Shown: piece after piece, positions 2,796-48,730 of the stretch
How positions within the stretch are numbered: the first letter of the stretch is position 1
Layout: each line of letters opens with the position of its first letter
NCBI GenBank assembly: GCA_902515745.1
Contig: CABXWB010000001.1
Span: forward strand, 186,001 to 250,000
Length of the DNA stretch: 64,000 bases
Direction: 5' to 3'
From: an uncultured Alphaproteobacteria bacterium
GTDB taxonomy: Bacteria; Pseudomonadota; Alphaproteobacteria; HIMB59; GCA-002718135
Notes under the pieces: generated by a model
Databases searched by the model: none
The model's input: only the letters and a program-made list of their open reading frames with translations
What the model was told of the DNA's origin: nothing
Translations under genes and position numbers: made by a program

Positions 2796-3611
2796 CTAAC
2801 TGGGTAAAGGATAGTGTTCAGCTATGAATTTCTTTAGAATTTCTAATGTTTGATCTGCTTCTTCTAAGAGCATCATATGACCACAATCTTCAATAATCTT
2901 TACTTCTGAGCCTTTAATATAATCAGCAAGAATTTTTCCATCTTTTAAACGGCACATTCTGTCTTGTGCGCCTAATATAGAAAGAGTAGGTAAATCCAAT
3001 TTCTTAGCAACCTCAGGTCCATTTTTATAATTATCACATGCTCTAAAATCAACACCTAGAGTATCTTTGATTTCTTTATTTTGAACAATCATGGAACCAA
3101 CATTTAGGTGATATAATCCTGGAACAGGATGACCTCCAAAATGTCCTGCTGGACCGTGTGCAAAATCCATCATAAGATCAACAGCCTTAGGATTGCTCTC
3201 TTCAGCAAGCTTTAATAATTCTGGGTTCATCGGAATAGCAGACGCACCGCCCATAAGAGTTAAAGTTTTAATTTTTTCTGGGTGTTGTGCAACACATTCC
3301 ATTGTTACAAGACATCCTTGAGAATGTCCAACTAGTGAAGCTTCTTTACATCCAACTGCACCAATAACATCACCAACCCAGTTTCCCATTTCTTCAATAG
3401 TTTTTAAACTTTCACCAGAAGATAATCCGTGACCTGGTAAATCAACTGCTAAAACACTGTATCCACGGAATGCAAAGTAACGTGTTTGTAAAACCCAAAC
3501 CATGTGACTTAGTCCACTACCGTGAACAAAAATAATAAGAGGTTTATTTTTATCAAAAGGTCTGCCTCCAGTGGAGGCAAACGTATCGATACCTCGAACT
3601 TTAAATTTCAT
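2796..3611 (-). CDS. Alpha/beta-fold hydrolase
   Basis: A 271-residue soluble alpha/beta hydrolase. HGSGLSHMVW forms the oxyanion-hole strand, GHSQGC carries the nucleophile serine, and LGAQDRMC and DCGHMMLLEEADQ supply the acid and the histidine. DLPGHGLSSGE is the usual strand after the oxyanion turn. The gene starts immediately after the sulfhydrylase stop (no gap), so the two are translationally linked within a run that also holds an acyl-CoA ligase. The genomic company suggests hydrolysis of an ester or thioester made or used by that run. The substrate is not deducible. Confidence 0.82.
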   Translation of the reverse strand: MKFKVRGIDTFASTGGRPFDKNKPLIIFVHGSGLSHMVWVLQTRYFAFRGYSVLAVDLPGHGLSSGESLKTIEEMGNWVGDVIGAVGCKEASLVGHSQGCLVTMECVAQHPEKIKTLTLMGGASAIPMNPELLKLAEESNPKAVDLMMDFAHGPAGHFGGHPVPGLYHLNVGSMIVQNKEIKDTLGVDFRACDNYKNGPEVAKKLDLPTLSILGAQDRMCRLKDGKILADYIKGSEVKIIEDCGHMMLLEEADQTLEILKKFIAEHYPLPS

Positions 3612-23144: not shown

Positions 23145-24440
23145 ATGATAATTTCAAAAAATGTATTTTTAAAAGTAATACTACTGCTCACCCTCATTAT
23201 ACTTCTTGCACCTAAAACATATGGATCTTCTTCAGATGAAGAAAAATATAAATATTTAGATCTATTTGGGCAGGTATTTGACAGGGTAAGATCATCCTAT
23301 GTAGAAGAGGTTACGGATCAAGAGTTAATTGAAAAAGCGATTGATGGAATGTTGTCAGGTTTAGATCCTCATTCTGGTTTTATGAATGAAGAAGTATTTC
23401 AAGAAATGCAAATGGATACAGAGGGTAAATTTGGGGGATTAGGTATTGAAATTACCATGGAAGAAGGTTTTGTAAAAGTCATTGCTCCAATTGAAGACAC
23501 ACCAGCATATGAAGCTGGAGTTCTTGCAGGTGATTACATTATTCAAATAGATGAAACACCTGTTTTTGGTCTAACTCTAAATGAAGCCGTTGAATTAATG
23601 AGAGGTAAAAAAGGTGAGCTTATAGTAATTACTATTTCGAGAGCAAATACTGAACCCTTTGAGATTGAAATTATTAGAGATTATATAAAAATTAGATCAG
23701 TAAAAAGTGAAGTACTTAATAATATTGGATATTTAAGAATAACATCTTTTAACGAACAAACAGAAAGTGGCCTTCTTGATGCAATAAAAAAAATTGAAAA
23801 AGAAAACCAAATAAAAGGTTATGTTTTAGATGTACGGTCTAACCCAGGCGGTCTTCTTACTCAAGCAGTTAAGGTAACAGATATATTCTTGGAAAGAGGA
23901 GAAATTGTTTCAACAAGAGGTAGAGATAAAAAAGATATTAGAAGATATCGTGCAAAGAAGTCTGACAGAACTAATGGTAAACCACTTGTTGTTATTATTG
24001 ATGGAGGTTCTGCATCTGCATCTGAAATTGTTGCAGGAGCACTGCAGGATCATAAAAGAGCAATCATTATAGGCACACAATCTTTTGGTAAAGGATCAGT
24101 ACAAACAATAATTCCCTTTCAAGTTTCAAATAGCGATAATCTCACTGGTATAAGATTAACGACGGCTAGATATTATACTCCCTCAGGTGAGTCAATCCAG
24201 GGTAAGGGTATTTTTCCAGATATAGTTATTGAGCAAGGTGAATTTGAATCTTTTGATTATAGAAGATTTTCTGAGTCGGATTTAAAAGATTCCCTTGATA
24301 AAAATAACGAAGAAGAATTAGAAGATAATGAAGATAATGAATTAAGTGAATTTGAAAAACGTTTAGAGCTTGATTATCAACTCCGTAGAGCCTTTGATCT
24401 TGTGCAAGGTGTAAGTCTCTTCAATGAAATTCAAGAATAA
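23145..24440 (+). CDS. ctpA: S41 C-terminal processing peptidase
   Basis: Exported serine protease with a PDZ domain. The signal peptide is hydrophobic residues 7-27 (VFLKVILLLTLIILLAP). YVEEVTDQELIEKAIDGMLSGLDPHS begins the mature protein. The PDZ region runs about 95-170 (GGLGIEITMEEG, APIEDTPAYEAGVLAGD). The catalytic part has the serine in GGSASASEIVAGALQDH and the lysine in GTQSFGKGSVQ. An acidic stretch (KNNEEELEDNEDNE) precedes the C-terminus. It acts in the periplasm on C-termini of envelope proteins. Confidence 0.94.
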   Translation: MIISKNVFLKVILLLTLIILLAPKTYGSSSDEEKYKYLDLFGQVFDRVRSSYVEEVTDQELIEKAIDGMLSGLDPHSGFMNEEVFQEMQMDTEGKFGGLGIEITMEEGFVKVIAPIEDTPAYEAGVLAGDYIIQIDETPVFGLTLNEAVELMRGKKGELIVITISRANTEPFEIEIIRDYIKIRSVKSEVLNNIGYLRITSFNEQTESGLLDAIKKIEKENQIKGYVLDVRSNPGGLLTQAVKVTDIFLERGEIVSTRGRDKKDIRRYRAKKSDRTNGKPLVVIIDGGSASASEIVAGALQDHKRAIIIGTQSFGKGSVQTIIPFQVSNSDNLTGIRLTTARYYTPSGESIQGKGIFPDIVIEQGEFESFDYRRFSESDLKDSLDKNNEEELEDNEDNELSEFEKRLELDYQLRRAFDLVQGVSLFNEIQE

Positions 24441-45672: not shown

Positions 45673-46002
45673 CTAAAAAACCATTCTCACTAAGTTAACA
45701 GTAATTAAAATCATGATAAAATATATAAGATAATTTATTGATACTTTAATGAATTTGGCTGTCTTTTTCGATGTGACATAATCTTCAATAATTGTTTGCA
45801 GTCCTAATTTTGAATGCAGAAGCATAGATTGCATCATCACAAAAAATAAGAATGCATTAAAATAGGATTGAAAAAAAATTTCTATTTCAGAATAAGTCAT
45901 CTTTGATAATGATATTGCAGAGTATATAAACCAAAACGTCAATGGTATTAAAATTGAAGCAGTAATTCTTTGGGTTAACCATTTAAAAGCATAATTTTTC
46001 AT
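45673..46002 (-). CDS. sdhD: Succinate dehydrogenase membrane anchor subunit SdhD
   Basis: A 109-residue anchor with three predicted membrane helices (about residues 15-32, 45-62, 83-107). WLTQRITASILIPLTFWFIY starts the first helix. SMLLHSKLGLQTIIEDYV contains the heme-ligand histidine and the conserved D-Y pair. It overlaps sdhC by four bases (ATGA). Sequence is diverged but position and pattern leave little doubt. Confidence 0.93.
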   Translation of the reverse strand: MKNYAFKWLTQRITASILIPLTFWFIYSAISLSKMTYSEIEIFFQSYFNAFLFFVMMQSMLLHSKLGLQTIIEDYVTSKKTAKFIKVSINYLIYFIMILITVNLVRMVF

Positions 46003-46379
46003 GCGAAGTACCAGACAACTAAACTAGAAATTAAAGTTAAACATATAACAACATAACCAGATTTATATACTTGAGATAATTCCATTCCAATACCGAATGA
46101 CCAATATAATTTTCTACATCCATTAAATAAATGGTAAAAAATACCGACAGTCCAAATCATTAGAACTAGTTTGAACAAAATACTCTTAGAAAAAATTTCA
46201 AAATAAATATAAAAATCGGGACCAAAACTAATTAAGAAAAACCAGATTGAAATTAATAGTGCACCCACACTTAATCCTATTCCAGATATCCTATGAAAAA
46301 TTGAAAATACTGCTGTAAGTACTCTTTTGTGAATAGATAGGTGAGGTGATAATGGTCTATTATCAGTCATTTTTTTCAT
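45999..46379 (-). CDS. sdhC: Succinate dehydrogenase cytochrome b556 subunit SdhC
   Basis: A 126-residue anchor with three membrane helices. RPLSPHLSIHKR and FSIFHRISGIGLSVGALL are the family signature. HLFNGCRKLYWSFG carries the late histidine region with the heme ligand His. Two ATGs exist, at 46379 and three codons later at 46370. The second (MTDNRPLSPHL) resembles the family start more closely. It is the first gene of the ten-gene TCA run ending with lpd. Confidence 0.92.
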   Translation of the reverse strand: MKKMTDNRPLSPHLSIHKRVLTAVFSIFHRISGIGLSVGALLISIWFFLISFGPDFYIYFEIFSKSILFKLVLMIWTVGIFYHLFNGCRKLYWSFGIGMELSQVYKSGYVVICLTLISSLVVWYFA

Positions 46380-46527: not shown

Positions 46528-46573
46528 AACTAAAAATCTTGAATTTTAAATAGATAGATATTACTCTTAATAA

Positions 46574-46709
46574 GCCGGATAATACTCGTTTCTTAGCTTC
46601 GGAGGAACGCCAAGAATTTTTAATTATCTTACCCGCCGTTTGATAATTAGTTGAGTTTCTTATTCTAGAGAGGTGTCTGCCAAGGTACAAACTAGTTTTA
46701 GAGTCCGGC
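46574..46709 (+). ncRNA. Candidate structured non-coding RNA, possibly 6S-like
   Basis: Locally GC-rich island of about 136 bases in an otherwise AT-rich 330-base gap. The ends pair: GCCGGA (46574-46579) with TCCGGC (46704-46709). CTC (46585-46587) pairs with GAG (46701-46703) after a five-base bulge. Inside, GTTTCTT/GAGGAAC closes a hairpin with two G-U pairs, and TAATTATC/GATAATTA closes another around the loop TTACCCGCCGTT. The G-U pairs are stable only if the plus strand is transcribed. The size and single closed domain fit 6S RNA, but I do not recognise a consensus. It is not tmRNA, SRP RNA or RNase P RNA, since their signature motifs are missing. The 3' end reaches the stop of the convergent hydrolase gene. 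Confidence 0.5.
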
Positions 46710-47696
46710 CTACTTTAAATTTTTATTAAAAAATTCTTCCATCTTTTTAGAGTATACTTCGGGATATTTAAACATAGCATCTACATGATAAGAGTTTTCA
46801 ACTAACCAAAACTCAGCATTAATTTTATTTTGATTTGTATATTCTTTAAAATAATTAAAGTGTCTTGTTAAGATTCTTGTATCAGAGTCGCCATGAATAA
46901 AAAAATAATATTGGTTCTTTGATAATTTTTTAGCTGGAGATAATTCTCTTGGATCAGTTCCAGTTAAGATTCTTCCAGCTAAACTTACTACAGGCCCAAA
47001 TTCTATAGCAAGACCATATCTTGCTATTTCATCTTTTAAGATCATATTAAATTCAGCAAGTGAACTATCTGCCCACACTGCACGTATTTCTGGTTCTGCG
47101 TTTGCTGCAAAAATAGAGGTGCTTGCACCAAGAGATATTCCATGTAATCCAATGCTATTAGACTTGAAACCAATTTTTTTTAAAAAATCAAATGCACCAA
47201 GAATATCATTATATGACTTTAAGCCCAAATCATCATAACTACTTACAGTATCACTTTGGCCGTAGTTTCTTAAATCTATCGTAAGAACATTAAATTTTTT
47301 ATTAACTAAAAAACTTGCAATAAGATTGGCTTCAGACTTACATTTACCATTTGGGCTTATACCGTGTGTTACAATTATAATTGGTCTATTTGGAAAATAA
47401 TTAAACAGCCATCCATTAATCTTAATGTCAGAGTCACGAGATTGAAAGTATACATCTTGCCATTCATCTAAATAATAATCTTTAAAGTTAAAATTTTCTC
47501 TTACTTTTTTTCGTGCAAGAATTGAGTATTCATGTGAATCAACTGTTGTACTCCATGAATTAGGAAGAGATCCTTCGTGTAACCCACAAGTTGGATCTAT
47601 TTTTAAAATTTGATAAGCAACATAAAAACCTGCAGTAAAATAAACTACTACTAATAAAACTACTGTACTGACTAAAAATCTAATTATGTATTTCAT
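46710..47696 (-). CDS. Membrane-anchored alpha/beta hydrolase
   Basis: A 328-residue protein. One N-terminal membrane helix (IIRFLVSTVVLLVVVYFTAGFY) is followed by a long region of about 85 residues. The hydrolase fold then starts: IIIVTHGISPNGK, DLRNYGQSDT, the nucleophile elbow GLHGISLGASTS, then FIHGDSDTRI and ENSYHVDAMFKYP for acid and histidine. The catalytic domain probably lies in the periplasm. Related proteins are lipoprotein-type or BAAT-like esterases of unknown substrate. I use the ATG at 47696, which overlaps the zapE stop by one base (TGATG), rather than the TTG at 47699. Confidence 0.8.
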   Translation of the reverse strand: MKYIIRFLVSTVVLLVVVYFTAGFYVAYQILKIDPTCGLHEGSLPNSWSTTVDSHEYSILARKKVRENFNFKDYYLDEWQDVYFQSRDSDIKINGWLFNYFPNRPIIIVTHGISPNGKCKSEANLIASFLVNKKFNVLTIDLRNYGQSDTVSSYDDLGLKSYNDILGAFDFLKKIGFKSNSIGLHGISLGASTSIFAANAEPEIRAVWADSSLAEFNMILKDEIARYGLAIEFGPVVSLAGRILTGTDPRELSPAKKLSKNQYYFFIHGDSDTRILTRHFNYFKEYTNQNKINAEFWLVENSYHVDAMFKYPEVYSKKMEEFFNKNLK

Positions 47697-48730
47697 CAAT
47701 CTGGTTTTACTATAGTCATCTCATATAATCTGCTAGCAGTTCTTTTAAATTCTTCAGCTAGAGTATTTATATTATTTAATGAATTTATAGGTTTTGATGC
47801 TAAAATTACAATAGAACAATTATTTTCATATAACATATCAATTAATCCAATAAATCTTCTGCACGCATCTTTTTTCTGATTATCAAATTCAGGAACATTT
47901 TTTAAAAATACTAACTTAAATTTATCTGCAATATTTTTGTAATCTTCATTACCAAAATTTACTTCACAAAGATTTTCAAAATCTATCATCATTAGATTTG
48001 ATGTGCATTTATCAAACTCTAGTTCACGACTTTTAGATTGTATTTTTACAGTTGTTAAATGGAAGGGGTCAACAAAGCGATTAAATAATTTTTCAAATTC
48101 ATTTGTTGTGTCAGTTGTTATAGGTGTGAAATATGTCTTTGATTGATTTAAGGTTTGTCGACGAAAATCAGTTTTTATACTAATATCATGGAGAAAAAAA
48201 TTTTTTTTAATCAAATCAATAAATGGTAGAAAATCATTTCTCTGTAAACCATCTTTATATAAATTATCTGGATGAAAATTTGACGACAATAATATAAATA
48301 TTTTATATTTAGAAAAATAATTAAATATTTTTTTTATTATTAATGCGTCAACAATATTAAAAATATGTAATTCATCAATGAATATTATTTTGTAATCTCT
48401 ACTTAAATTCTTTACATAGTTTTCAATAGCAAGTTCTTTATTTTCTGATTTTTTAACTTGTTCATGTATTTCATTCATTAAGTTATTAAAATGAATTTTT
48501 TTTCCAATCTTGGTATTTTGATAAAATAAATTTAATAAAAATGTTTTTCCTGTTCCAACTTGACCATAAAGATAAATTCCTTCAAAAATTTTATCTTTAA
48601 AAAATAACTTTGTTTTACTAAAAGATGACCATACATTACCTGCTTGTTTTAAGAATTCAATTTGATCTTTATTTTTTTTAATAAAATTATTTTCAACAAA
48701 ACTATTGTATTGATCAATTACATTAAACAT
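47696..48730 (-). CDS. zapE: AFG1-family ATPase ZapE
   Basis: P-loop ATPase of 344 residues related to mitochondrial AFG1/LACE1. Walker A is YLYGQVGTGKTFLLNLFY, Walker B is IIFIDELHIFNIVDALIIKKIF, with LLSSNFHPDNLYKDGLQR and the DFRRQT segment. Bacterial ZapE acts at the constricting Z ring, and eukaryotic AFG1 handles respiratory-chain subunits. Being one step from sdh is common in alphaproteobacteria. Both ends overlap neighbours, so it is translationally coupled with the 46-residue ORF before it and the hydrolase after it. Confidence 0.9.
   Translation of the reverse strand: MFNVIDQYNSFVENNFIKKNKDQIEFLKQAGNVWSSFSKTKLFFKDKIFEGIYLYGQVGTGKTFLLNLFYQNTKIGKKIHFNNLMNEIHEQVKKSENKELAIENYVKNLSRDYKIIFIDELHIFNIVDALIIKKIFNYFSKYKIFILLSSNFHPDNLYKDGLQRNDFLPFIDLIKKNFFLHDISIKTDFRRQTLNQSKTYFTPITTDTTNEFEKLFNRFVDPFHLTTVKIQSKSRELEFDKCTSNLMMIDFENLCEVNFGNEDYKNIADKFKLVFLKNVPEFDNQKKDACRRFIGLIDMLYENNCSIVILASKPINSLNNINTLAEEFKRTASRLYEMTIVKPD

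Follow-up and report, generated by a model that had tools for sequence, protein, structure and literature searches.

Genomic context of the RNA gene

In the window, by which we mean the whole 64,000-nucleotide stretch of DNA analyzed here, sdhC (45999–46379, minus strand; Pfam Sdh_cyt, E = 2.7e-24) is followed by an alpha/beta hydrolase gene (46710–47699, minus strand; Pfam Peptidase_S9 and Abhydrolase_1). Exactly 330 bases separate the start of sdhC at 46379 from the stop of the hydrolase gene at 46710. Within this gap, at positions 46574 to 46709 of the plus strand, lies the gene of a 136-nt noncoding RNA, which is directly abutted by the hydrolase stop codon at its 3′ end. The RNA gene is convergent with the hydrolase gene and divergent from sdhC, the orientation given in an initial annotation that had been made from the sequence alone. 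We delimited it from the first to the last base of its terminal stem, P1, on the basis of covariance-model and blastn matches with the same ends in relatives, a consensus structure, and covariation. The gene forms an island of 34 to 38% GC in surroundings of mostly 20 to 30%. The paired ends proposed in the initial annotation, GCCGGA at 46574 and TCCGGC ending at 46709, were confirmed, and the inner pairing of CTC (46585–46587) with GAG (46653–46655) was likewise found in the sequence.

The 330-base gap had been described as the only one of its kind, and it is indeed the largest protein-free gap, since a larger gap of 514 bases (2282–2795) contains two small ORFs. These lie on the plus strand at 2338–2532 and 2588–2770 and encode 64 and 60 aa; the product of the former is short and has two stretches that probably lie in the membrane, and that of the latter is highly charged.

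The ocean group AEGEAN-169, also known as SAR11 subclade V, is abundant and for the most part uncultured, and its streamlined genomes contain little noncoding DNA. The source genome of the window (1.62 Mb, 42 contigs) groups with ocean single-cell genomes, including AG-337-I02, and we infer that it belongs to AEGEAN-169 in the HIMB59 order (PMC10308909) and, within it, to subclade II.

Consensus fold and covariation

For all covariation claims made here, we used 35 diverse sequences that MAFFT had aligned in a structure-blind manner, and the comparative counts on the RNA cover 35 to 46 sequences. We preferred this alignment to a model-fitted one because part of the two-sided changes in the latter came from a shifted P2 in a single genus (g5). 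In the consensus structure, P1 encloses three hairpins; the internal hairpins of the initial annotation are thus real, but there are three of them rather than two. The 5′ strand of P1, GCCGGAU (46574–46580), is 100% paired with its partner GUCCGGC (46703–46709), and two-sided changes are seen at 4 of the 7 pairs. GCCGGA/UCCGGC is replaced by GUCGGA/UCCGAC in one clade and by GCUGAG/CUCAGC in the most distant genus.

Hairpin 1 (46590–46616) is built from UUCUU and GCUUC, a GGAG loop, and GAACGC and AAGAA on the 3′ side, with pair probabilities of 0.81 to 0.99. One of its pairs shows a two-sided change, and the segment GGAGGAAC (46601–46608), which comprises the loop and the start of the 3′ strand, is invariant in all 35 sequences from six genera. 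In hairpin 2 (46624–46646), UUAUC/GAUAA changes to UCAUC/GAUGA, other compensations occur, and in other genera A-U, U-A, or C-G pairs take the place of the apical U-U mismatches; its apical loop, CCGCC (46633–46637), is again the same in 35 of 35 sequences. Hairpin 3 (46665–46695) consists of CUAG, AGAR, and GUGUCU, a GCCA loop, and AGGUAC, NNN, and CUAG, and includes a tandem G-U/U-G. Its pair probabilities are high (0.87–0.98), but it is almost invariant across the 35 sequences and therefore says little by covariation. The segment UGUCUGCCAAGG is near-invariant as well, with a single deletion in one of the 35 sequences. We regard P2, formed by ACUC (46584–46587) and GAGU (46653–46656), as tentative because its pair probability in the consensus ensemble is 0.29, compared with 0.77 to 1.0 for the main helices; CUC and GAG can pair in all sequences, and the variants seen are G-U variants only.

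Taken over P1, P2, and the three hairpins, 93.9% of the cells are paired, as opposed to at most 41.7% after shifting of the partners by one to three columns. Two-sided changes were counted at 10 pairs and in 39 cells, compared with 4.5 and 10.8 in shuffles, none of 500 of which reached as high, although the changes are distributed by clade and the independent events are fewer than the cells counted. Covariation in related genomes had been proposed as a check on the initial annotation, and the stems of the RNA do change by compensation.

Plus-strand orientation and putative promoter

The paired columns contain 145 G-U cells and only 2 A-C cells, and the plus strand is therefore the RNA. The RNAalifold consensus energy was −26.1 kcal/mol (z = −5.1) for the plus strand versus −14.5 kcal/mol (z = −3.1) for the minus strand. 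For the plus strand folded as a single sequence, the advantage over shuffles was small (z = −1.9, with 9 of 200 as good), and the minus strand gave z = −2.5. The initial annotation had favored the plus strand because of two G-U pairs in one hairpin, a call that the consensus energies and the G-U count bear out; the two pairs in question form the tandem G-U/U-G in hairpin 3 (GUGUCU/AGGUAC), which is invariant in every one of the 35 aligned sequences.

Upstream of P1 on the plus strand, we found a −35-like element, TTGAAT (46539–46544), and, after a spacer of 14 nt, a −10-like element, TATTAC (46559–46564), located 9 nt before P1. Of 46 homologs, 45 have TTGA at 35 to 37 nt upstream of P1, against a chance expectation of about 0.04 per sequence, and a TA-rich hexamer (TATTAN, TGTAAT, or TATAGT) occupies the place of the −10-like element in homologs. 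A promoter consensus scan, in which a spacer of 16 to 18 nt was required, does not list TATTAC. Further RNA genes of the same genome, such as those of tRNA-Gln and RNase P, likewise carry TTGA-type upstream boxes. As TTGA lies at a fixed distance before P1, transcription probably starts at the first base of P1, from a sigma-70-type promoter belonging to the RNA gene itself. A free-standing gene with its own promoter is what is expected of a trans-encoded sRNA, the promoter here being a match at the level of sequence only.

At the other end, the 3′ strand of P1 is probably the site of either trimming or termination of the RNA. P1 is followed by a T-rich tail, which is pronounced in many distant homologs and less so in the lineage of the window, and a scan for intrinsic terminators found no classical terminator on either strand.

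Occurrence in the HIMB59 order

Using a covariance model, we found the RNA in 80 of 162 genomes of the HIMB59 order, with one copy in each. These genomes represent all six genera of one GTDB-style family, and no genome of the sister family among the 162 gave a match. All 32 family genomes that are listed as at least 84% complete carry the RNA, and blastn located the island in about two thirds of the genomes of the same genus. At every locus checked in the six genera, the hydrolase gene, the RNA, and sdhC have the same arrangement and orientation. Between the window and other lineages, the RNA is 66 to 84% identical and the end of the hydrolase gene 56 to 75%, while identity in the remainder of the gap is equal or close to that obtained with shuffled sequences. 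Its presence in every near-complete genome of the family, its fixed place beside sdh, and a conservation generally above that of the adjoining coding-gene end make it likely that the RNA is important.

A class-wide model search, a weak first look in which 8 candidates were scored per genome, returned no homolog in 385 genomes, and neither did a phylum-wide exact-pattern search of 399 genomes. A pattern match in a viral contig (L185) was dismissed as chance, the covariance model giving no score at that place and strand. In one locus of genus g3 (L131 of genome G101, about 3216–3240, minus strand), an insert of ~22 nt is located between P1 and the P2 region, and P1 (GCCGGA/TCCGGC) is kept.

Relation to known RNA classes

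The RNA corresponds to no family of Rfam 15. At the gathering cut-offs, nothing matches at 46574–46709, and at E ≤ 10 no convincing match was obtained in the gap, the best being a nematode snoRNA with 17.1 bits against a cut-off of 52. This agrees with the initial annotation, in which no family consensus had been recognized and an Rfam search had been recommended. We also discarded tmRNA, SRP RNA, and RNase P RNA as identities, given that copies of these are located elsewhere in the genome (contigs C8, C4, and C8, respectively). A riboswitch or cis-acting leader was rejected since the RNA is followed on the plus side by a convergent gene in all genera checked, and a coding reading since the six frames contain two to three stops on average and the homologs range from 134 to 144 nt in length without a triplet rule. 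Elsewhere in the window, at 23988–24111 on the minus strand, Rfam reports a match to Rp_sR47 (Rickettsia sRNA47; 68.5 bits). It lies antisense within an ORF resembling a carboxy-terminal processing protease and may be due to conservation of the coding sequence, not to an sRNA.

On strong comparative sequence support, the RNA is a real and previously undescribed RNA gene. We estimate the probability at about 85% that positions 46574–46709 of the plus strand encode a free-standing, stable, structured noncoding RNA that is specific to one family of the HIMB59 order, adopts a three-hairpin fold closed by P1, and probably has its own promoter.

The initial annotation had raised 6S RNA as a candidate. 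A strongly diverged 6S RNA, which would bind RNA polymerase and template product RNAs, is in keeping with the similar size range, the terminal stem that closes the 5′ and 3′ ends, the promoter, and the single copy per genome. It would also account for a 6S RNA that is otherwise missing, as RF00013 was matched neither in the window at the gathering cut-off, nor in the gap at E ≤ 10, nor in the genome, and gave no match in 53 genomes of the order. However, the same model does detect the 6S RNA of Caulobacter. Moreover, 6S RNA is a long rod with a central bubble, whereas covariation here backs a closing stem with three hairpins, that is, a branched fold, and conservation sits in the hairpin loops rather than in a bubble. 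We therefore consider this identity very unlikely. The 6S RNA of the 53 genomes has been either lost or diverged.

Even less probable, to the point of being nearly negligible, is that the region belongs to the minus-strand hydrolase mRNA, as its terminator or 3′ untranslated region, or that it is a DNA operator of the sdh promoter. Its location between two genes, right at the hydrolase stop codon, would suit such roles, and some folding is also seen for the minus strand. Against this, the 145 to 2 ratio of G-U to A-C favors the plus strand, the scan revealed a terminator-like site on neither strand, and an operator would leave the compensatory changes over 136 bases unexplained.

Possible mode of action

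The family-specific RNA described above combines invariant loops with covarying stems, a pattern suggestive of action in trans through presentation of these loops. We view this as its most likely mode of action, at roughly even odds. By closing the three hairpins, P1 would present the nearly invariant segments GGAGGAAC, CCGCC, and UGUCUGCCAAGG to a partner, either a protein or another RNA engaged through loop-loop pairing. Kissing of the GGAGG and CCGCC loops, both of which are invariant, is possible from the sequence and would involve four G-C pairs around an A-G mismatch.

Within trans action, we judged protein binding to be ahead of simple antisense pairing because a search of 437 translation-start regions, covering about 28% of the genome, yielded no GGCGGG, the complement of the CCGCC loop. 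TGGCAGA, the complement of the hairpin 3 loop, was found in 4 start regions compared with 0.4 expected for shuffled motifs, and was one of nine motifs tried. In alphaproteobacteria, trans-encoded sRNAs with C-rich (CU-rich) loops pair with ribosome-binding sites, using the anti-Shine-Dalgarno sequence CCUCC. The RNA resembles them in its free-standing gene and its C-rich hairpin loop but differs in having CCGCC instead of CCUCC, three conserved hairpins, no Rfam match, and no GGCGGG in the 437 start regions.

That the RNA is itself an antisense sRNA, with its C-rich loop pairing with the ribosome-binding sites of, possibly, sdh or TCA mRNAs, appears unlikely, yet it is the most tenable of the alternatives considered. 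It is consistent with the invariance of CCGCC and with the RNA of the sister family at the same locus (see below), which likewise presents a C-rich loop, CACCCCGCAUG; furthermore, targeting of sdh by an sRNA is known from other bacteria (NrrF, PMC5586341). Apart from the lack of GGCGGG, what speaks against it is that inspection by eye revealed no stretch complementary to the sdhC leader and that all three hairpins, not one loop alone, are conserved.

The initial annotation had spoken of a small RNA of the TCA locus, which holds as to the position beside sdh. Physical linkage to the sdh operon is also a feature of the small RNA SdhX/RybD of enteric bacteria, which is released by cleavage from the 3′ end of the sdh-suc mRNA (PMC6393394). 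The RNA studied here differs in that it is preceded by a promoter-like sequence of its own and oriented divergently to sdhC. The RNA gene and the divergent sdhCDA genes have an intergenic region of 190 bases in common, and through this shared region they may be co-regulated. With the covariance model built here, the RNA can be searched for in ocean metatranscriptomes, and it could enter Rfam as a new family.

A second structured RNA upstream of sdhC in the sister family

In the sister family (HIMB59-type), we found another, likewise undescribed structured RNA element upstream of sdhC, about 85 to 98 nt long and present in 42 genomes. Examples on the plus strand (L156, 4117–4200; L155, 4130–4224; L220, 527–624) have a closing stem, a covarying inner stem, and the invariant hairpin CUCACCCCGCAUGAG. 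The fold scored z = −4.1 on the plus strand versus −3.0 on the minus strand. Two-sided changes affect 6 of its pairs, and no match to Rfam was obtained in three loci. This element shares with the RNA of the window its locus, its plus-strand orientation relative to sdh, and a closing stem, and its hairpin loop contains CCCGC; it differs in length, sequence, and branch order. Run in both directions, the covariance models gave no sign of homology between the two, each failing to detect the other RNA.

It is conceivable, but improbable in our estimation, that the sdhC-divergent region is a dedicated site for lineage-specific structured RNAs in AEGEAN-169, with the RNAs of the two sister families either having diverged from a shared ancestor to the point where it can no longer be recognized or having replaced one another, and that these form a new housekeeping-like class that may replace 6S RNA in a streamlined ocean lineage and tie respiration to gene expression. 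The sister-family element precedes a same-strand gene that by eye resembles a TRAP transporter subunit, and it could be either a free RNA or the leader of this TRAP-like plus-strand gene.
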